From Sideroxydans sp. CL21 (GTDB taxonomy: Bacteria > Pseudomonadota > Gammaproteobacteria > Burkholderiales > Gallionellaceae): 64,000 nucleotides of DNA. The notes beneath the pieces are model-generated. The model was not told the origin of the DNA. It ran no database searches and saw only the letters and a program-made list of their open reading frames with translations. Below are positions 52,492-63,298 of the stretch, piece after piece. The position numbers and the translations under genes are program-made. Positions within the stretch are counted from its first letter, which is position 1. Each line of letters starts with the position of its first letter. The stretch is from positions 287,501 through 351,500 of the forward strand of contig NZ_LR699166.1 of assembly GCF_902459525.1 (NCBI RefSeq), written 5' to 3'.

Positions 52492-52551
52492 GGGATCGAA
52501 CCCTCGTATGCAGCTTGGGAAGCTGCCGTTCTACCATTGAACTACACCCGC
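52492..52551 (-). pseudogene. truncated tRNA-Gly(CCC) copy
   Basis: The minus strand carries the D-arm, anticodon arm (CCC) and most of the T-arm of tRNA-Gly, identical to the complete copy at 54828. After GATCCC the sequence becomes TACATCAACTTCA instead of the acceptor strand CACCCGC plus CCA. The acceptor and T stems cannot close properly, so this copy should be inactive. The 14 bases beyond still resemble a decayed tRNA end (9 of 14 match). Confidence 0.88.
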
Positions 52552-52664
52552 GATACTCGATGATTTTACGCAGGTTACAGACAATACTCAAATCAACAGT
52601 GTCCTTACAGTGTGAAACAGTGCGGACTCCACCGTGGAGAATACTGTTCAAGGGTTGAGTTTGT
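52492..52664 (-). repeat. 173-bp inverted repeat, left arm (tRNA-Gly plus promoter)
   Basis: This arm is the reverse complement of 54715-54887, with one mismatch in 173 bases. It contains the tRNA promoter (minus strand -35 at 52586-52591, -10 at 52563-52568) and the first 60 bases of tRNA-Gly. Outside the arm the two copies diverge sharply. Confidence 0.95.
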
Positions 52665-54122: not shown

Positions 54123-54731
54123 TTGTTAGTCGAAGCTAGTCTTCTGAGGTCGAAGGAACTCCGCGTGTGGATTCATGAGCAAACCAATGAACTCATTTTG
54201 CCAAATTCTGAACGCATACGCATCGGTGCTGCTGCCCTCCATCTTGCACAAGAACACCACGATGCAATCATCACGTTAATTGACAAACTGCTTTACGGTT
54301 CAGCCTTTGCTCTCATAAGGGTACAGCTTGAAGCGTATGCTCATGGCCTTTGGCTATTGAATTTCGCAACAGACACCGAATTGCAGAACTTCATGAAAGG
54401 GACCTGCCCTAAATTAGAACAGATGATTAAGAAAATTGGTAATGCTCCGGAAACAGGAGGAGCATGGCTTAAGGTTAACAAGGAAACAAACTCGCCACAA
54501 TTTAACCAGCTCACACATGGTGGTGCATCTCAAGTCATCAGAAGAATCACAGAAGTCGGAATCGAATCTAGTTATCCAGATGATGAGCTTGCCAGGTTGC
54601 TTGATTTTTCGGTCGAGATAGAAATCCGTGTAGCTGCTGAGCTCTTTGCATTAGCAGATATGGAAACGTTACTGGCGGAATTGGAAAAACAGGCAACTGT
54701 TTTTCGCAACTCACACAAACTCAACCCTTGA
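54123..54731 (+). CDS. DUF6988-like protein
   Basis: The protein of about 202 residues has ERIRIGAAALHLAQEHHDAIITLIDKLLYGSAFALIRVQLEAYAHGLWLL and a later FNQLTHGGASQVIRR, the pattern of DUF6988-type alpha-helical proteins of unknown function, often on mobile DNA. TTG 54123 has GAGGAAG upstream; GTG 54096 is an alternative start. The stop codon lies inside the right inverted-repeat arm, so the last six residues are encoded by the repeat. Confidence 0.65.
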   Translation: MLVEASLLRSKELRVWIHEQTNELILPNSERIRIGAAALHLAQEHHDAIITLIDKLLYGSAFALIRVQLEAYAHGLWLLNFATDTELQNFMKGTCPKLEQMIKKIGNAPETGGAWLKVNKETNSPQFNQLTHGGASQVIRRITEVGIESSYPDDELARLLDFSVEIEIRVAAELFALADMETLLAELEKQATVFRNSHKLNP

Positions 54732-54887
54732 ACAGTATTCTCCACGGTGGAGTCCGCACTGTTTCACACTGTAAGGACACTGTTGATTTGAGTATTGTCT
54801 GTAACCTGCGTAAAATCATCAAGTATCGCGGGTGTAGTTCAATGGTAGAACGGCAGCTTCCCAAGCTGCATACGAGGGTTCGATCCC
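54715..54887 (+). repeat. 173-bp inverted repeat, right arm
   Basis: It matches the reverse complement of 52492-52664 with one mismatch. It begins at ACAAACTCAACCC in the end of the DUF6988-like gene and runs through the tRNA promoter into the T-arm of the intact tRNA-Gly. The 2050-bp loop between arms is AT-rich and carries three cargo genes. Confidence 0.95.
54788..54816 (+). promoter_or_regulatory. tRNA-Gly promoter
   Basis: TTGAGT (54788-54793) and TAAAAT (54811-54816) are separated by 17 bases, a good sigma-70 promoter, 12 bases before the tRNA. The same promoter is present in the left arm on the opposite strand, pointing at thiS. Confidence 0.7.
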
Positions 54888-54901: not shown

Positions 54902-55060
54902 TTCGCATGGCCTCGTCAAGAAACCCGATTCCCATTCAGATGTGACGCTCCATTATTCCTTGCGCGCATGCTCGATCAGCGAAATTCACGTAGATAGTAC
55001 TGTTCGAAAGAACACATCGCCCAATGAAGCAGGCGCGATGATGACAGGTCCCAGTTATGC

Positions 55061-55498
55061 TCAGCGGATACGCCAGGAAGCATGGCAGCTTACGCAAGCA
55101 CTGGTCAGGTTGGGCAACAGAGCCAGTGCGCGGTCGCGTTCTCCCGCCTGTGCCGCCTTGGCAAATTCGCTGGCGGCGCGGTGGCCTTCCATGCCCAGCG
55201 CACGCATGGCTTGTGGCATATGCGGCCCCGGGCGTGCATCGAAAGGCTTGTCCCTGTTCCGGCCTTGGACGGAAAGACCGAGTTGTTGTTCGGCGACTGC
55301 ACCGGCTTCCTTGAACTTGTCTGTTGCGACCAGTCCGAGAATCTCGTTAAGCGCCACCAGATTGGCGAGCATCTCTTGTCGTAGCGTCTCCTGCGCTGGC
55401 GGCGGCAGGGTGGCCAGTTGGCGTTGGTCTTCAGCCATTAACGGGCCCGCCAGCAGCAAGCCAGCGAGCCACAGAGGGCGCAGACAGTCTGCTTTCAT
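55061..55498 (-). CDS. secreted c-type cytochrome with C-terminal CVSCH (cytochrome c' like)
   Basis: The 145-residue precursor has a signal peptide (LWLAGLLLAGPLMAE), a helical body and a heme motif CVSCH near the C-terminus (TSACVSCHASWRI), the class II arrangement of cytochrome c'. Cytochromes c' bind gases such as NO. The ATG overlaps the cydX stop (ATGA), so it is the last gene of the bd oxidase operon, an unusual partner for cydABX. Confidence 0.8.
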   Translation of the reverse strand: MKADCLRPLWLAGLLLAGPLMAEDQRQLATLPPPAQETLRQEMLANLVALNEILGLVATDKFKEAGAVAEQQLGLSVQGRNRDKPFDARPGPHMPQAMRALGMEGHRAASEFAKAAQAGERDRALALLPNLTSACVSCHASWRIR

Positions 55499-55581
55499 TC
55501 GTGAAACTCGTGCCAGAGCGCGTTGACTACGGCGAACAGTATGGCCATTGCAAGGCCCAACATCCAGGTGAAATACCACAT
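55495..55581 (-). CDS. cydX: cytochrome bd accessory subunit CydX
   Basis: This 28-residue open frame begins MWYFTWMLGLAMAILFAVVN and ends with WHEFHE, the typical CydX/YbgT single-helix peptide that stabilises cytochrome bd. It starts 16 bases after cydB, behind AAGGAGA, and its stop overlaps the start of the cytochrome c'-like gene. Confidence 0.93.
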   Translation of the reverse strand: MWYFTWMLGLAMAILFAVVNALWHEFHE

Positions 55582-55597: not shown

Positions 55598-56737
55598 TTA
55601 ATAAGCGGAATGATCGTTAGTCTCGATGTAGGCGTTGGTGACCTTGCCCGCCATCATCTTGTATGCCCAACCGGTGTATGTGATGACGATGGGTGTGAAG
55701 ATCAGCGCGGCCCAGAACATCACTTCCAGGGTCAGGTGGCTGGAGACGCTGTCCCATACCGTCAGGCTGGAGCGCGGATCGCTGGACGAAGGCATGATGA
55801 AGGGAAACATGGCGACACCGGCAGTGCCGATGACGCCAAGTTCAGCGACACCGCTGGCGATGAAGGCCAGCACCGGCTTTTTCGCCCAGGCAAACAGCAG
55901 GGCCAGCAGGCCGCCGACGAAGGCAGCGCCCGGTACTGCCCAGAGTGCAGGATGCCTTGCAAAATTGTCCAGCCATGCGCCCGTCTGAATTTCGACTGTC
56001 TTGTCCAGCGGGTTGGGCAATGCGCCGGGATCAACCACCGAGGTGATGACATAGCCCGGCATATCCGAAGCAACCCAGATACCGGCAATGGTGAAGGCAG
56101 CCAGCATCACGGTGCCAAAGATCAGCGAAGCTTTTCTGGCGCGTGCGTAAACATCACCCTCGGTGCGTATCATCAGATAGTTCGCGCCGTGGAAAGTGAG
56201 CATGGACAGGCTTACGACGCCAGCCAACAGGGCGAACGGATTGAGCAGCCCCCAGAACGTGCCTGTGTAGACCGGCATCAGGTTGTCTTCGAAGTGAAAG
56301 GGGACGCCTTGCAGCAGGTTGCCGAACGCGACACCGAAGATCAGCGCGGGTACGCTGCCGCCGACGAACAGGCCCCAGTCCCAGGCGCTACGCCAGCGCG
56401 GATCGGCCACCTTGGAACGGTAGTCGAAGCCGACGGGACGGAAGAACAGCGCCCACAAGACTATCAGCATGGCCCAGTAGAAGCCCGAGAAGGCAGTCGC
56501 ATAGACGAGCGGCCAGGCGGCGAATATGGCGCCGCCGGCAGTGATGAACCAGACCTGGTTGCCGTCCCAATGCGGGCCGACGGTGTTGATGACGACGCGG
56601 CGTTCCACGTCGCTTTTGCCGACGAAAGGCAGCAGCGTGCCCACGCCCATGTCGTGGCCGTCCATGACTGCAAAGCCGAGCAGCAGCACGCCGACCAGCA
56701 GCCACCAGATGATTTTCAGGGTTTCATAATCGAGCAT
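55598..56737 (-). CDS. cydB: cytochrome bd ubiquinol oxidase subunit II
   Basis: The 379-residue membrane protein starts MLDYETLKIIWWLLVGVLLLGFAVMDGHDMGVGTLLPFVG. It has GNQVWFITAGGAIFAAWP and the C-terminal LTLEVMFWAALIFTPIVITYTGWAYKMM, as in CydB. ATG 56737 follows GAGGAAAAC, 10 bases after cydA. It pairs with CydA in the quinol oxidase. Confidence 0.96.
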   Translation of the reverse strand: MLDYETLKIIWWLLVGVLLLGFAVMDGHDMGVGTLLPFVGKSDVERRVVINTVGPHWDGNQVWFITAGGAIFAAWPLVYATAFSGFYWAMLIVLWALFFRPVGFDYRSKVADPRWRSAWDWGLFVGGSVPALIFGVAFGNLLQGVPFHFEDNLMPVYTGTFWGLLNPFALLAGVVSLSMLTFHGANYLMIRTEGDVYARARKASLIFGTVMLAAFTIAGIWVASDMPGYVITSVVDPGALPNPLDKTVEIQTGAWLDNFARHPALWAVPGAAFVGGLLALLFAWAKKPVLAFIASGVAELGVIGTAGVAMFPFIMPSSSDPRSSLTVWDSVSSHLTLEVMFWAALIFTPIVITYTGWAYKMMAGKVTNAYIETNDHSAY

Positions 56738-56747
56738 GATGTTTTCC

Positions 56748-58319
56748 TCACTGTGCGGATTTAAGGGCGGGCGCAGCTTCTCCCGCATAACGGCCGGTGC
56801 CCAGGCTGGATGGGCCGAGGCGTGCGTACTTGAACATCAGGTACAGCTCCACCACCAGCAGGCCGGTATAGAAAAACATGAAGCCGGCAAGCGAACCGTA
56901 CAGGCTGTTGACCGAAATGGTCGAAGTGGAAAGATTGGTCGGCAGGATGCCGAAGATGGTCCACGGCTGGCGGCCATATTCCGCCACGAACCAGCCCATC
57001 TCAGAGGCGATCCAGGGCAGTGGGATGAACCACAAGGCCCAGCGCAGCAACCAGCGTTTTTGCTGGAAGGTGTTCTTGGCCGAATACCAGAACGACAACG
57101 CAAACAGGGCAAAGAAGGAGAAACCCAGTGCCACCATGATGCGGAAGGTCCAGAACATGGGAGCGACCCTGGGGATGGAGTTGCGCGCTGCCTGCGCGAT
57201 CATTTCCGGCGTCGCCAGAGAGACATCGGCGGTGTATTTCTTCAGCAGCAATCCGTAGCCCAAATCGGCCTTGTGTTCTTCGAAGCGCGCTTTAGTCGCA
57301 TCGTCGGCGGTCTTGGCGCGCAACTGTTCGAGCGCCTTGACGGCGATGGTGCCGCTCTGGATGCGCTCGACGGCGCGTGCTTCGAGCTGGTCTATGCCGG
57401 GAATCTGTGTGTTCGCGGAGCGGGTGGCGATCAGGCCGAGGGCGTAGGGGATCTTGATCTCGGCCCTGTTCTCGCGTTTCTCATCGTCTGGAATTGCAAA
57501 CAGCGTAAAGGACGCCGGGGCTGGCTCGGTCTTCCACATGCCTTCCAGCGCAGCTAGTTTAGTCTGCTGGTGTTCGGTGACGGCATAGCCGGATTCGTCG
57601 CCCAACACGATCACGGACATGGCCGATGCAAAGCCGAACGCGGCCGCGATGCGGAACGAGCGCTTGGCGAATTCGATATCCCTGCCTTTCAGCATGTACC
57701 AGGCGCTGATGCCAAGCACGAACATGGAGCCGGTGACGTAACCGGCCGACACGGTGTGCACGAATTTGGCCTGCGCTGCCGGGTTGAACACCAGTTCCTT
57801 GAACGACGTCATTTCCATGCGCATGGTCACGTAGCTGAATTGCGAGCCGACCGGGTTCTGCATCCAGCCGTTAGCGATGAGGATCCATACCGCCGACAGG
57901 TTGGAGCCGATCGCCGTGAGATAGGTGATCAGCAGGTGCCTGCGTTTGGAAAGCTTGTTCCAGCCGAAGAAGAAGAGGCCGATGAAAGTGGATTCGAGGA
58001 AGAATGCCATCAGGCCTTCGATGGCCAGCGGCGCGCCGAAGATGTCGCCGACGTAGTGCGAGTAATAGGCCCAGTTGGTGCCGAACTGGAATTCCATGGT
58101 GATGCCGGTGGTGACGCCGAGTGCGAAATTGATGCCGAACAGCTTGCCCCAGAATTTGGTCATGTCCCGGTAGATCTCCTTGCCGGTCATGACGTACACC
58201 GTCTCCATGATGGCCAGCAGGAACGAAAGGCCGAGCGTCAGGGGGACGAACAGGAAATGGTAGAAGGCCGTGGCGGCGAATTGCAGCCGCGACAGGTCGA
58301 CGACTTCTTGGGTAATCAT
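56748..58319 (-). CDS. cydA: cytochrome bd ubiquinol oxidase subunit I
   Basis: The 523-residue protein has [23 protein letters not shown] with the b595 ligand His, the quinol-binding Q-loop region ([31 protein letters not shown]), and [13 protein letters not shown]. Its length fits the long-Q-loop class. bd oxidases are resistant to sulfide, cyanide and NO. The start overlaps the CydP gene by four bases. Confidence 0.97.
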
Positions 58320-58552
58320 TTGTGACTCTCCTCGTGAGGTTCAGTTGTGTTTGCTGGCAGCGGCGCGATCAGGGCGGCGGCAACGCGGTCCGGATTCATA
58401 CCCTCGGTCATGCCGTGTATCGACGGATGGCTGAAGAAGGCATACCAGAGACCGTAGAGCACCAGGAATTTGATCGCCAGAGCAACGGCGATCTCGCGGC
58501 GTAGCGTCTTTCTCGCGCCACCGGTGTTGCGTTTCAGCCGTGGCAGTTGCAT
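58316..58552 (-). CDS. cydP: cytochrome oxidase small subunit CydP
   Basis: The 78-residue protein has a basic N-terminus ([27 protein letters not shown]) with one transmembrane helix and the pattern of CydP, a small protein found upstream of cydAB in beta- and gammaproteobacteria. It overlaps both neighbours (19 bases into the NifX-like gene and 4 into cydA). Confidence 0.85.
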
Positions 58553-58950
58553 GTGTGACCTTGTCCGCTTGCGTGAACGTGCTCATCGCCGTCCGGATCG
58601 CCATGGTCGTGGTTGCAACCTTCGCTGGCTGGTTTCACTCGACCTGCGAGGAATGCCTCCACTGCCATGCCGGGATCGCTTTCTTCAGTAGCGACCACCA
58701 GCACGCCGCGTGCAGCCAGGTGCTGGATAAAGCCTGCTCCGGCACCGCCGGTGATCAGCACATTCATGCTGTCGAGGGGGTGTGCGGCGCGATGATCGAA
58801 GCCATGGATCGCCATGTCGGCATCAAAATCGAGTCGTTCAACTTCGCGGGAAGGTTCCTGTCCGTTGGCTTCGAAGACAATGAAGCGACGCGCACGTCCG
58901 GCGTGGCCAGTGACGGTGCGGTAATTCTGGCTGGTAACTGCTATACGCAT
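58534..58950 (-). CDS. NifX/NifB-type FeMo-cofactor-binding domain protein with His-rich tail
   Basis: The 138-residue protein begins MRIAVTSQNYRTVTGHAGRARRFIVFE and has VLITGGAGAGFIQHLAARGV, as in COG1433 (dinitrogenase cofactor-binding) proteins. These occur widely outside nitrogen fixation and bind iron-sulfur or molybdenum clusters. The tail [27 protein letters not shown] should bind metal. ATG 58950 has GGAGA. It is the first gene behind the sigma-54 promoter; its role in the bd operon is unknown. Confidence 0.85.
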   Translation of the reverse strand: MRIAVTSQNYRTVTGHAGRARRFIVFEANGQEPSREVERLDFDADMAIHGFDHRAAHPLDSMNVLITGGAGAGFIQHLAARGVLVVATEESDPGMAVEAFLAGRVKPASEGCNHDHGDPDGDEHVHASGQGHTCNCHG

Positions 58951-59080
58951 GAGATTCTCCTGACTGTTAGTTGGGAGGAAGCGACGGGCGTCGAAGCAGC
59001 GGGCAAGTACTGTTTGCGAGAGGAGTGCCCTCGGACTGTTTCTGGCAGCAAAGGCTACGCCGCTTCCATGCGCTCTGCAA

Positions 59081-59096
59081 TGCAAGGCGTGTGCCA
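59081..59096 (-). promoter_or_regulatory. sigma-54 promoter of the nifX-like/cyd operon
   Basis: On the minus strand the sequence TGGCACACGCCTTGCA matches the sigma-54 consensus exactly (TGGCAC, five bases, TTGCA). Transcription should start near 59069, about 120 bases before the NifX-like gene. Two activator-type palindromes lie about 135 and 156 bases upstream. Confidence 0.88.
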
Positions 59097-59196
59097 CGTT
59101 TGTCAGAAAAAATCTAACAGCCTAAGTTCGTTGCTGTTTTCAGATCTGCTTGCGGCGAAATGTCGCATGCGTGCGATGGAAATAAGCCAGATAATT

Positions 59197-59232
59197 CTGC
59201 CATGGTGGCAGGGATATCCGCCATCATGGCAG
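59197..59232. promoter_or_regulatory. paired activator-binding palindromes (CTGCCA-N3-TGGCAG)
   Basis: CTGCCATGGTGGCAG (59197-59211) and CCGCCATCATGGCAG (59218-59232) share the same 6-3-6 architecture, with centres 21 bases apart, so they face the same side of the helix. They lie between the regulator gene and the sigma-54 promoter, the classical position for an enhancer-binding protein. A third copy lies upstream of the regulator gene at 60571. Confidence 0.85.
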
Positions 59233-59238
59233 AGTGGA

Positions 59239-60540
59239 CTACTCTCCAAGTCGCTTCAGTTTCCGGTATAGCGTTCTTTCGCTGATACCGAGTTCAGCCG
59301 CCAGTTTTTTGCGGCTGCCGCGATGATGTGCGAGCCGAGTCTCCAAGGTCTGGCGTTCCAGTTCTTCCAGACTTGCGTATTTGCCGGTATTGTTTGCACG
59401 CAACGCGTGACCGGAGCGCACTTCCTCGGGCAAATGTATTGGCTGTATGGCTTCGCCATCGCATAACAGGCTGGCGCGCTCGATGATATTCCGCAATTCG
59501 CGCACATTGCCGGGGTAGTCGTAGTGGAGCAACAAATCAATGGCCTCCTCGGAAATTACCAGATTTCGGTCGGCCGCAACGCGTGACAAAAGAGACATCG
59601 CCAGCAGGGGAATATCGGAGGATCGTTCGCGCAAGGCAGGCAGTTCAACCGGAAATGTATTGAGCCGGAAGTAAAGATCTTGCCGAAAACTGCTGCTGGT
59701 CACCATTTCGCGCAGGTTGCGGTGTGTCGCCGAAACCAGACGGATATCTGCTTTGTGAGGTTCGGCAGAGCCAACGCGCCGATATGTGCCGGTTTCAAGC
59801 AGGCGCAAGAGCTTGACTTGCATGACCAGAGGAATGTCACCCACTTCATCGAGGAACAGTGTTCCGCCGCTGGCAGCCTCGATCAACCCTACGCTTCTGG
59901 TGTTGGCGCCTGTAAATGCACCGCGTTCGTGACCGAACAGTTCGCTTTCGAACAACGTTTCGGTCAGCCCCGAGCAATCAAGTGCAACGAAAGGTTTGCC
60001 AGCCCTGCGGCTTGCGTCGTGTATCGCCCTGGCTACGAGTTCCTTGCCGGTGCCTGACTCTCCCAGGAGCAGCACGGTGGCCTCCGAAGGCGCAACTCGC
60101 GCAACCATTTCCAGCATGTGTTGAAAGGCTGGCGCTCGCCCGACCAGTCCCTGTGCATCGGAAAGTCCACGGGCAACGGCAAGGGGCTCCATTTTCTCGA
60201 TGAAGTAAGCGATATCGCCCTTGGCGTCGCGTATGGGCGATAACTCGATGTTGACATAAGCCTCTCCCTGCGGAGTTTGGTGCAGGTGAAGTACACGTTC
60301 CCGTTGCCCTGAACGGAGGCTTTGCTGAAGCGGGCAGGTTTCGCCTGCCTGATCGCAGGGGACGCTGAAATGATGGGAAATATCGAAACAGGTGCGACCC
60401 GCATAAACCTGGTTTACGCCGAAGCTGCGCCGGTAGGCATTGTTTGCTGCCAGTACCCTGTATTGGCGATCGCACAGAATATGTGGCTCCGGGAGTGTTT
60501 CTATGAAGGATACAAGTTCGGGGAGTAGAGGAGATTTCAT
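59239..60540 (-). CDS. fisR: FisR-like sigma-54-dependent activator (sulfane-sulfur sensor)
   Basis: The 433-residue regulator has an N-terminal PAS-like sensor domain, an AAA+ domain with GESGTGKE and the sigma-54-contacting GAFTGA, and a Fis-type helix-turn-helix ([21 protein letters not shown]). The sensor domain has cysteines 51, 62 and 69. Their 11- and 7-residue spacing equals that of the three persulfide-reactive cysteines I recall from FisR of Cupriavidus (53, 64, 71). It lies upstream of and on the same strand as the cyd operon, with matching operators on both sides. Confidence 0.85.
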
Positions 60541-60570
60541 AATGCGGCAATTCCACTTGAGTGACAAACA

Positions 60571-60585
60571 CTGCTATGATGGCAG
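60571..60585. promoter_or_regulatory. activator palindrome upstream of fisR-like gene
   Basis: CTGCTATGATGGCAG has the same 6-3-6 form as the paired sites at 59197-59232, with outer bases extending the symmetry (CACTGC/GGCAGTG). It lies 31 bases before the regulator start and 60 before the divergent dioxygenase-like gene, so it could serve autoregulation. Confidence 0.75.
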
Positions 60586-60644: not shown

Positions 60645-61343
60645 ATGAGCCTTGTTTTCTGGTGCTGTGGCTCGAATCTTGCGTTGGAGATTACCTGTCT
60701 GCTTTTAAAGGTAAAGAATCCAATCGTGGTGTTCCGGCAAATCAGAAATGCTCCAACCGGTGCTTACAGTTATATCCTGGGTGATCGCAACAATCCGGTC
60801 TGCATAGTCGTGGATCCGGTTGCAGAAAGCCAGGATGTGCTGCTCGCGCTGATTGGCGATTCTGGACTGGATTTACATTTAATTTTGCTGACCCGTGCGC
60901 ATTCGACTACAGGCCAGAGCGCAGTCTCGCTGCGTAACCGAACTGGTGGAATCATTGTCGCCGGTTCGGGCTGCAAACACTTGGAAGCTGATTTGCAAGT
61001 GGCTCATGGCGCACACATGACGTTCGGTGATGAGGTCGTGCATGTCATTGGTACCCCCGGTAACACGCGAAGTAGCGTGTGCTACCGTTGGAGGGACAGG
61101 TTGTTTTCCGGTGATACCTTGCTCATTGGAAATTGTGGCAACACCAATATGCCTTGCGAAGATCCGGGAAGCCTGTTCGACAGTGTGACGACTCGACTGT
61201 TTACGATGCCGCCGGAAACGCTGGTTTATCCGGGGCTGGATGTAAATGGACGCACTGTATCCACCATAGCAGAGGAAAAGGTATCGAATCCATGTTTCAG
61301 TAACCGCAGCAGGGATTCCTTTGTGGCGCTAATGTCTTCTTAG
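60645..61343 (+). CDS. persulfide dioxygenase-like MBL-fold protein lacking metal ligands
   Basis: From about residue 28 the protein follows the ETHE1/persulfide dioxygenase pattern (VFRQIRNAPTGAYSYILGD...GTPGNTRSSVCYRWRDRLFSGDTLLIGNCG...LFTMPPETLVYPGLDVNGRTVSTIAEEK). The metal ligands are lost: HxHxDH is RAHSTT, GHT is GNT, and PGHD is PGLD; only the Asp of SGDTLL remains. It is unlikely to be an active dioxygenase. The conserved part begins near GTG 60726, so the true start may be there. It is divergent from the fisR-like gene. Confidence 0.8.
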   Translation: MSLVFWCCGSNLALEITCLLLKVKNPIVVFRQIRNAPTGAYSYILGDRNNPVCIVVDPVAESQDVLLALIGDSGLDLHLILLTRAHSTTGQSAVSLRNRTGGIIVAGSGCKHLEADLQVAHGAHMTFGDEVVHVIGTPGNTRSSVCYRWRDRLFSGDTLLIGNCGNTNMPCEDPGSLFDSVTTRLFTMPPETLVYPGLDVNGRTVSTIAEEKVSNPCFSNRSRDSFVALMSS

Positions 61344-61865: not shown

Positions 61866-63298
61866 GTGGAAGCTACGCAAGCGACACCAGTAAAGTACGA
61901 TATGGAAGTCGTCCGATGGTTCACCATCGCGGCTGCCATTTATGCAGTCGTTGGGACGTTAGTCGGTGTGTATATCGCATCGGAATTGGCGTTCCCGTTT
62001 TTGAACTTTGATATCCCATACATCACGTTTGGACGCTTGCGTCCGCTACACACCAATGCGGTTATTTTCGCATTCGGTGGTTGCGTGTTGATGGCAACCG
62101 GCTTCTACATGGTGCAAAGAACCGGAGCCACAAAATTGTGGAGCAACGGCCTAGCATGGTTCACCTTCTGGGGCTGGAACCTGATCATTGTGTGTGCTGT
62201 GATCAGTCTGCCGATGGGGTGGTCGGAAGGCAAGGAATACGCTGAATTGCCATGGATCGTGGATATCATGATTGCGGTCGTGTGGTTGTCCTTCGGTCTG
62301 AACCATATCATGACCGTGGCGATCCGCAAGACTTCGCATATTTATGTCTCCAACTGGTTCACCATGGCCATGATTGTGATGATCACCTATCTGCATGTGG
62401 TCAACAGCTTGGCTATTCCTGTCAGCTTGACGAATTCCTATTCAATTTTCTCCGGCGTGCAGGATGCCATGGTGCAATGGTGGTGGGGCCACAATGCTGT
62501 GGGTTTCTACCTGACCGGCGGCTTCCTCGGCATCATGTATTATTTCGTTCCCAAGCAGTCGGGTCGTCCAGTGTTCTCCTATCGCTTGTCTGTGTTGCAC
62601 TTCTGGGCACTGACCTTTGGATACGTGTGGCTGGGCGCGCACCACTTGCAATACACCGCATTGCCTGACTGGACCGGCTCTTTGGGTGCCGCCGTCTCTC
62701 TGGCAATGATCATCCCGTCCTGGGGGGGGCGATGAACGGCATGATGACCTTGTCCGGTGCTTGGGATAAGTTGCGTACCGACTATATTTTGCGATTCCTG
62801 GTTGTTTCCCTTGCGTTCTACGCGATGTCAACGTTCGAAGGTCCGGTCATGTCCATCAAGACCGTTAACGCGCTGTCTCACTACACAGACTGGACCGTTG
62901 GTCACGTACACTCCGGTGCTTTGGGCTGGATGGCAATGGTTGCTTACGGCGCGATGTACCACATGGTGAAGAAACTGTGGGGTGTAGAAAAGATGTACTC
63001 CGACAGTCTGGTGAACGTCCACTTCTGGCTGGCGACCATCGGTACTGTGGTGTATGTCGTTGCGATGTGGGTCTCTGGCATCATGCAGGGTCTGATGTGG
63101 CGCGATTACGATGAGTACGGCACATTGACCTATACCTTTGTTGAGTCTGTCTCTGCGATGCATCCGTATTACGCGATGCGTGCAGCAGGTGGCCTGATCT
63201 TCAACATTGGTAGTTGGATTGCCCTGTTCAACATCGTGATGACCGTGCGTCAGGCGAGCGCTTTGCGCTCATCCGGCGCCGTTCCCGCTAAAGCATAA
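61866..63298 (+). pseudogene. ccoN: cbb3 cytochrome oxidase subunit I, frameshifted in a G8 tract
   Basis: The first 290 codons (GTG 61866 after GAGGAGGAG) encode CcoN through WWWGHNAVGFYLTGGFLGIMYYFVPK and [14 protein letters not shown], then stop at 62735. The rest (about 62732-63298, [38 protein letters not shown] and [13 protein letters not shown]) continues in another frame. The break is in TGGGGGGGGC at 62721-62730. One extra G restores [12 protein letters not shown], close to the usual SWGGMINGMMTL. A homopolymer sequencing error is likely, but a real phase-variable mutation is not excluded. Confidence 0.9.

Follow-up and report, generated by a model that had tools for sequence, protein, structure and literature searches.

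A FisR-family sigma-54 activator very probably wired to cytochrome bd genes in Sideroxydans sp. CL21

Introduction

In a 64,000-nt stretch of the Sideroxydans sp. CL21 genome (the window), a FisR-like regulator gene lies beside a cytochrome bd (cyd) operon, which raises the question of whether the regulator is wired to the oxidase genes and which signal it would serve. FisR of Cupriavidus pinatubonensis JMP134, the subject of work by Li and colleagues in 2017, is reportedly a sigma-54 activator with three sensor cysteines and adjacent pdo-sqr genes. According to reviews, FisR detects sulfane sulfur by means of cysteines (PMC9774590, PMC12170894, PMC8469610). Sulfide raises cydAB in several bacteria according to a further source, the available parts of which name no direct regulator (PMC7315123). 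The available parts of the open-licence literature hold no statement of FisR control of cyd, including PMC7315123, PMC9774590 and PMC8148161 as well as PMC12170894, PMC8469610, PMC11481527, PMC8788666, PMC10734462 and PMC12442390.

Results

The regulator has a FisR-type sensor

The host genome is a single contig of 3,772,857 bases with one copy of rpoN. The regulator gene, described before as encoding three sensor cysteines with 11/7 spacing and a GAFTGA motif, is the following:

59239..60540, minus strand: FisR-family sigma-54 activator, 433 aa, with PAS_4, Sigma54_activat and HTH_8 domains (Pfam)

Translation of 59239-60540 bears that description out. Cysteines occur at positions 23, 51, 62, 69, 189 and 360, with C51, C62 and C69 forming C-x10-C-x6-C (11/7 spacing), and the protein combines a PAS-like sensor, an AAA+ domain with GAFTGA and a Fis-type HTH, as in the FisR family. 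The predicted alignability of the sensor with FisR also holds: cysteines 51, 62 and 69 match C53, C64 and C71 of the 52% identical Cupriavidus metallidurans CH34 homologue, which stands in for C. pinatubonensis FisR and adjoins a canonical persulfide dioxygenase (PDO) gene. We take C53/C64/C71 to be the FisR cysteine numbering; nothing relevant on these numbers was found in the literature. Seven other activators in the genome match the regulator, none of them across its sensor domain.

For comparison, a named-genome scan with sensor alignment supplied the best 80 of 567 relatives, a sample in which near relatives are over-represented. Together with the window, 20 of 25 further places from a near-relative search, 20 of the best-scoring places from a search matching 60 of 300 genomes and two plasmid-collection records, these make 123 loci; one of them (L119), apparently the same locus as L048, was dropped, leaving 122. 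The three-cysteine pattern is present in 122 of the 123 regulators read among the matches listed, the exception being a fragment without the sensor. Membership of the window sensor in the FisR family is thus supported at the level of sequence. Beside the three cysteines, all 122 sensors among the matches listed share H56, H85 and H87, and this Cys/His set is possibly a metal site.

A cyd operon lies downstream of the regulator

The minus-strand genes downstream of the regulator are:

58534..58950, minus strand: NifX-like protein (PF02579) with a His/Cys-rich tail
58316..58552, minus strand: cydP (NF045611, above cut-off)
56748..58319, minus strand: cydA (PF01654)
55598..56743, minus strand: cydB (TIGR00203, above cut-off)
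55495..55581, minus strand: cydX, 28 aa, read by translation
55061..55498, minus strand: cytochrome c'-like protein with CxxCH (PF01322 at 18.7 bits, below the 26.5-bit cut-off)

Family models and translations agree with the gene order given in the preliminary description (nifX-like-cydP-cydA-cydB-cydX-cytochrome c'), the cytochrome c' falling below the Pfam cut-off, and the CydA and CydB models together identify a cytochrome bd. The name cydX is given by resemblance to the CydX sequence type. The NifX-like protein recurs near FisR-family regulators in 28 of 122 loci among the matches listed; genes for a bacterial globin, YbgE and a DUF302 protein are further members of relatives' operons (L167:3157-3588, L167:5460-5744 and L152:3671-4105). 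Elsewhere in the window, ccoN is split at 62714-62735 by a frameshift in a G run, whereas ccoN of the near relative L044 is intact. The published description, as far as available, gives the CL21 assembly as PacBio reads in one contig of 3.77 Mbp (PMC6952672), and since it is described as PacBio only, the frameshift may be a sequencing error.

Operators and sigma-54 sites flank the regulator gene

The candidate control elements are:

59081..59096, minus strand: sigma-54 promoter TGGCACACGCCTTGCA (TGGCAC-N5-TTGCA), facing the nifX-like gene and cyd
59197..59211, unstranded: operator CTGCCATGGTGGCAG, an exact CTGCCA-N3-TGGCAG
59218..59232, unstranded: operator CCGCCATCATGGCAG, one mismatch, 21 bp start to start from CTGCCATGGTGGCAG
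60571..60585, unstranded: third operator CTGCTATGATGGCAG, one mismatch, upstream of the regulator and before the divergent gene
60668..60683, plus strand: weaker sigma-54-like site TGGCTCGAATCTTGCG, two mismatches, facing the divergent PDO-like gene

The perfect sigma-54 promoter proposed before the cyd operon is indeed a zero-mismatch -24/-12 match at 59096-59081, the sole one in the window, where matches with up to two mismatches occur at 14 places. The two operators claimed earlier form a pair 21 bp apart, but only one is exact, the copy at 59218 carrying one mismatch; the third, at 60571, was absent from that account. No other operator with at most one mismatch occurs in the 64 kb. Genome-wide such operators number 30 places, compared with 19 for a reversed control pattern, and an exact match occurs at one place. 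Isolated one-mismatch operators are thus near background, and the cluster of three around one gene stands out. The site TGGCTCGAATCTTGCG alone is at chance level, and similar sites occur in L044, L045 and L046. The window locus therefore has the adjacent sigma-54 promoter with upstream operators found in the FisR family.

The control elements are conserved in near relatives

The near relatives are seven same-genus genomes with regulators 87-92% identical to that of the window (one a fragment, one without the first 23 residues); gene contexts of relatives were read by tblastn. The preliminary description had made operator conservation in relatives a test of its proposal, and that conservation is found. 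All seven keep the promoter and, with at most one mismatch, the operator corresponding to CTGCCATGGTGGCAG at the same distance, and in five of the seven the second operator is present too, carrying up to two mismatches. An exact operator stands upstream of the regulator in all five whose DNA extends there. Matches to the nifX-like gene, cydP and cydA follow in unchanged order in 7/7. In each of the four near relatives with enough DNA (L044, L045, L048 and L049), the last gene of the cyd operon is SQR-like, and two of these four also have the cytochrome c'-like gene. Among near relatives, the regulator has dN/dS of 0.04-0.08 and cydA of 0.03-0.10.

Linkage to cyd recurs across the FisR family

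The wiring of regulator to cyd was sought in related genomes and recurs there. Among the matches listed, 60 of 122 FisR-family loci have cydA no more than 2.5 kb from the regulator, divergently in 52 and downstream in the same direction in 8; all 8 same-direction loci, which share the window's layout, belong to the window's clade. Six regulators among those closest to this clade (L121, L122, L050, L092, L133 and L184) are not cyd-linked. In three loci the oxidase is a distant bd type, 34-35% identical to the window CydA. On a quick regulator tree (117 regulators, 58 cyd-linked; L060, L119 and four short rows excluded), the linkage to cyd takes 25 changes, and at least 13 when counted by supported branches. 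Shuffling the linkage on the tree gave means of 39.4-39.5 changes, and 0 of 500 shuffles were as low as 25. The repeated association, seen in two gene arrangements and for two types of oxidase, points to a functional link.

Among the matches listed, 45 of the 60 regulator-to-cydA regions carry a sigma-54-like site facing cyd, either canonical or with TTGA[TC] at -12. Canonical sites account for 17 of the 60 (reverse strand 0, shuffled mean 0.53) and TTGA[TC] for 28 (reverse strand 1, shuffled 0.47), the latter pattern having been defined after looking and the 60 regions being mutually related. In intergenic regions of L123-L195 (e.g. L144, L160 and L176), TTGAT replaces TTGCA at -12. Under a stricter promoter score, 22 of 61 regions among the matches listed had a site facing cyd, compared with 3 reversed and 1.6 expected. 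Palindromic operators occur in 36 of the 60 regions (shuffled 0.47), again among the matches listed, and half-sites reach 4.6 per 160 nt versus 0.94. By pattern search of the same listed regions, neither sigma-54 form was found in 15 of 60 and the palindrome was not found in 24 of 60; both counts weigh against the wiring, as do the unlinked regulators near the window's clade.

A divergent PDO-like gene and an SQR-like remnant

The oxidase had been called the only visible target of the regulator, which does not hold, since a PDO-like gene, preceded by the operator CTGCTATGATGGCAG and the weaker site TGGCTCGAATCTTGCG, diverges from the regulator. This gene and an SQR-like remnant had both been missed:

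60726..61343, plus strand: PDO-like gene divergent from the regulator, of metallo-beta-lactamase fold, starting with GTG at 60726 or 60729
54979..55083, minus strand: C-terminal remnant of an SQR-like gene, 35 residues, 54% identity (E 8.1e-5) with L044 protein residues 347-381

The PDO-like gene is present in L044, L045 and L046, where it likewise follows an operator and a sigma-54-like site of the weaker kind. It was not found in L047 and L048, and the place falls past the contig end in two other near relatives.

By phmmer the PDO-like protein matches 9rhq (5e-48) and ETHE1 (1.9e-24), with homology along nearly its full length. We take the iron ligand set of persulfide dioxygenase to be 2-His-1-Asp, so that H, H and D would be expected at the three ligand columns of the alignment; the window protein has R, N and D. 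It thus resembles ETHE1-type persulfide dioxygenases along nearly its whole length (9rhq, 5e-48) and differs from them in two of these three presumed ligands and in HxHxDH, of which it lacks the DH, so the canonical iron site is absent.

This loss is shared by a larger group. Among 67 PDO-like proteins (66 matches in FisR loci plus the canonical PDO of this genome), 17 have the triad and DH, 21 the triad without DH, and 29 a broken triad. The 50 without DH (those of the window, L044, L045 and L046 and 46 more) form one side of a single branch with 98% SH-aLRT on a quick tree built without a mixture model and with long branches flagged. The iron triad is broken in 28-29 of the 50; in 25 of the broken triads the D is replaced by G and a Cys stands two positions earlier.

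Decay of the PDO-like gene to a pseudogene was considered and rejected. Pairs with dS below 1 have dN/dS of 0.10-0.20, and the value is 0.10-0.13 between two copies without all three ligands; several other pairs, with saturated dS, give no or unsafe values. By this measure the protein is under constraint.

A search with the L167 protein in 300 genomes of the order returned 36 places in 35 genomes, of which 30 were read. A rough motif reading finds HxHxDH in 26 of the 30, lost in L215 and unreadable in L202, L209 and L228 (the window's own); at L219, a canonical PDO copy adjoins a FisR homologue. The altered clade is seen mainly in FisR loci, also where it was looked for.

Of 18 rows with the SQR-like flavoprotein of near relatives and other loci (L044:579-1721 and 17 further rows, L119 included), all have the first redox cysteine, none has the second and 17 have the third, one row not covering that column. 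Seven rows of SQR-type matches, from Thauera, Azoarcus, Methyloversatilis, Ottowia and Rubrivivax loci, have the second and third cysteine columns filled, and these match the query weakly. Because the PDO-like ligands are changed and the second redox cysteine of the SQR-like protein is absent, part of the FisR module may carry out altered sulfur chemistry. At 52492-52664 and 54715-54887 lie the arms of a 173-nt inverted repeat (99% complementary), which overlap two tRNA-Gly copies and enclose 2 kb next to the remnant; this repeat probably marks a rearrangement that removed the SQR-like gene. What the window retains of the adjacent pdo/sqr genes of FisR systems is a PDO-like gene with changed ligands and this remnant.

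Sulfur genes accompany the regulator in relatives

Among the matches listed, SQR- or PDO-like matches, some of them weak, occur in 40 of the 60 cyd-linked loci. In L095, L096 and L101-L103 the gene after cydAB encodes a PDO that keeps the canonical motif, and L096 and L101-L103 have SQR-like matches further on. At the C. metallidurans locus, CTGCCAACTTGGCAG between regulator and PDO is the same operator as in the window; the promoter pattern search found no match there, and by eye TGGCACGGGTTTTGAG faces the PDO gene. A genomic link of FisR-family regulators to sulfide genes is supported by these arrangements.

A canonical PDO gene and two SQR-like genes of full length, all elsewhere in the CL21 genome, lack a linked operator and promoter: no operator with up to two mismatches was found at L112 and L117, and one lies 1.1 kb upstream at L113. 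These genes without paired sites speak against a broad sulfide regulon in CL21.

Discussion

The regulator is very probably wired to genes for a sulfide-resistant bd oxidase. At the level of DNA the FisR-cyd wiring is real and recurrent, and it would represent a variant of the FisR system with a bd oxidase as a main target. The FisR-like regulator and its sigma-54 wiring to cyd, as first described, are thus supported, while the oxidase is not the sole visible target. We consider it likely that the protein is a FisR-family activator of sulfide-tolerant respiration and sulfur-handling genes, in a system trimmed in this strain. It would bind the CTGCCA/TGGCAG operators on either side of its own gene; its three sensor cysteines would, by analogy with FisR, react with sulfane sulfur, and its ATPase would then open sigma-54 promoters. 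The strong promoter at 59096-59081 would drive nifX-like-cydPABX-cytochrome c' and the weaker site the divergent PDO-like gene, so that respiration could proceed through a sulfide-tolerant bd oxidase as reactive sulfur is dealt with. The SQR-like gene appears to have been cut away in this lineage and the PDO-like protein to have lost iron ligands; because of these two losses, the bd oxidase would be the main intact output.

The same DNA wiring could serve another signal, with the Cys/His-rich PAS domain binding a metal or reacting with NO, oxygen or general redox stress as a switch for NO or low-oxygen respiration. The three histidines invariant beside the cysteines in 122 of 122 listed sensors favour this, as do the cytochrome c' of the window and the bacterial globin in a relative's operon, which fit NO, and the resemblance of the window operator to what we take to be NorR-type sites. 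The repeated linkage to SQR- and PDO-like genes and the operator shared with the PDO-linked C. metallidurans locus speak against it, and we regard such a signal as unlikely, though deserving of some weight. By analogy with FisR, we infer that the regulator responds to sulfide or persulfide.

The loss of the SQR-like gene and of PDO-like ligands in this strain could also mean that the regulator is a relic of sulfide oxidation with minor control of cyd, which other promoters would mainly run. This is improbable given regulator dN/dS of 0.04-0.08 and the perfect promoter and operators kept in near relatives. That the operators and promoter are chance matches is barely credible: one-mismatch operators are common in the genome (30 versus 19 in the control), but conservation in near relatives, recurrence across loci and the shuffled and reverse-strand controls contradict it, and we reject this explanation.

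If a sulfane-sulfur-responsive activator does control these genes, the system would connect the sensing of sulfane sulfur with the selection of a terminal oxidase. Its known sensor family, operators and promoters make it directly testable here and in culturable Thauera, Azoarcus, Zoogloea, Methyloversatilis and Sphaerotilus. The analysis also brings to light a PDO-like clade without the canonical metal motif. More speculatively, and in our judgement doubtfully, the Betaproteobacterial FisR family could be a respiratory sulfur-stress module with the bd oxidase as recurrent partner and the PDO-derived protein as a persulfide-binding accessory (buffer or co-sensor), not an enzyme. Were this so, the window protein would be its clearest case, being ligand-poor, under purifying selection and back-to-back with the sensor.

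Like FisR of C. pinatubonensis JMP134 and Acinetobacter baumannii, the window regulator is a sigma-54 activator with three conserved sensor cysteines and a divergent or adjacent sigma-54 promoter; unlike in JMP134, its main adjacent operon is cydPABX and not pdo-sqr. In A. baumannii, sulfide induces cydAB, which is located away from FisR, and the available parts of that report make no statement of FisR control (PMC7315123). The same parts describe the sulfide-induced cytochrome bd of Escherichia coli and Mycobacterium tuberculosis as a sulfide-tolerant route (PMC7315123), a role in which the window oxidase would be alike, whereas the window differs from both in having a dedicated sigma-54 activator beside the operon.
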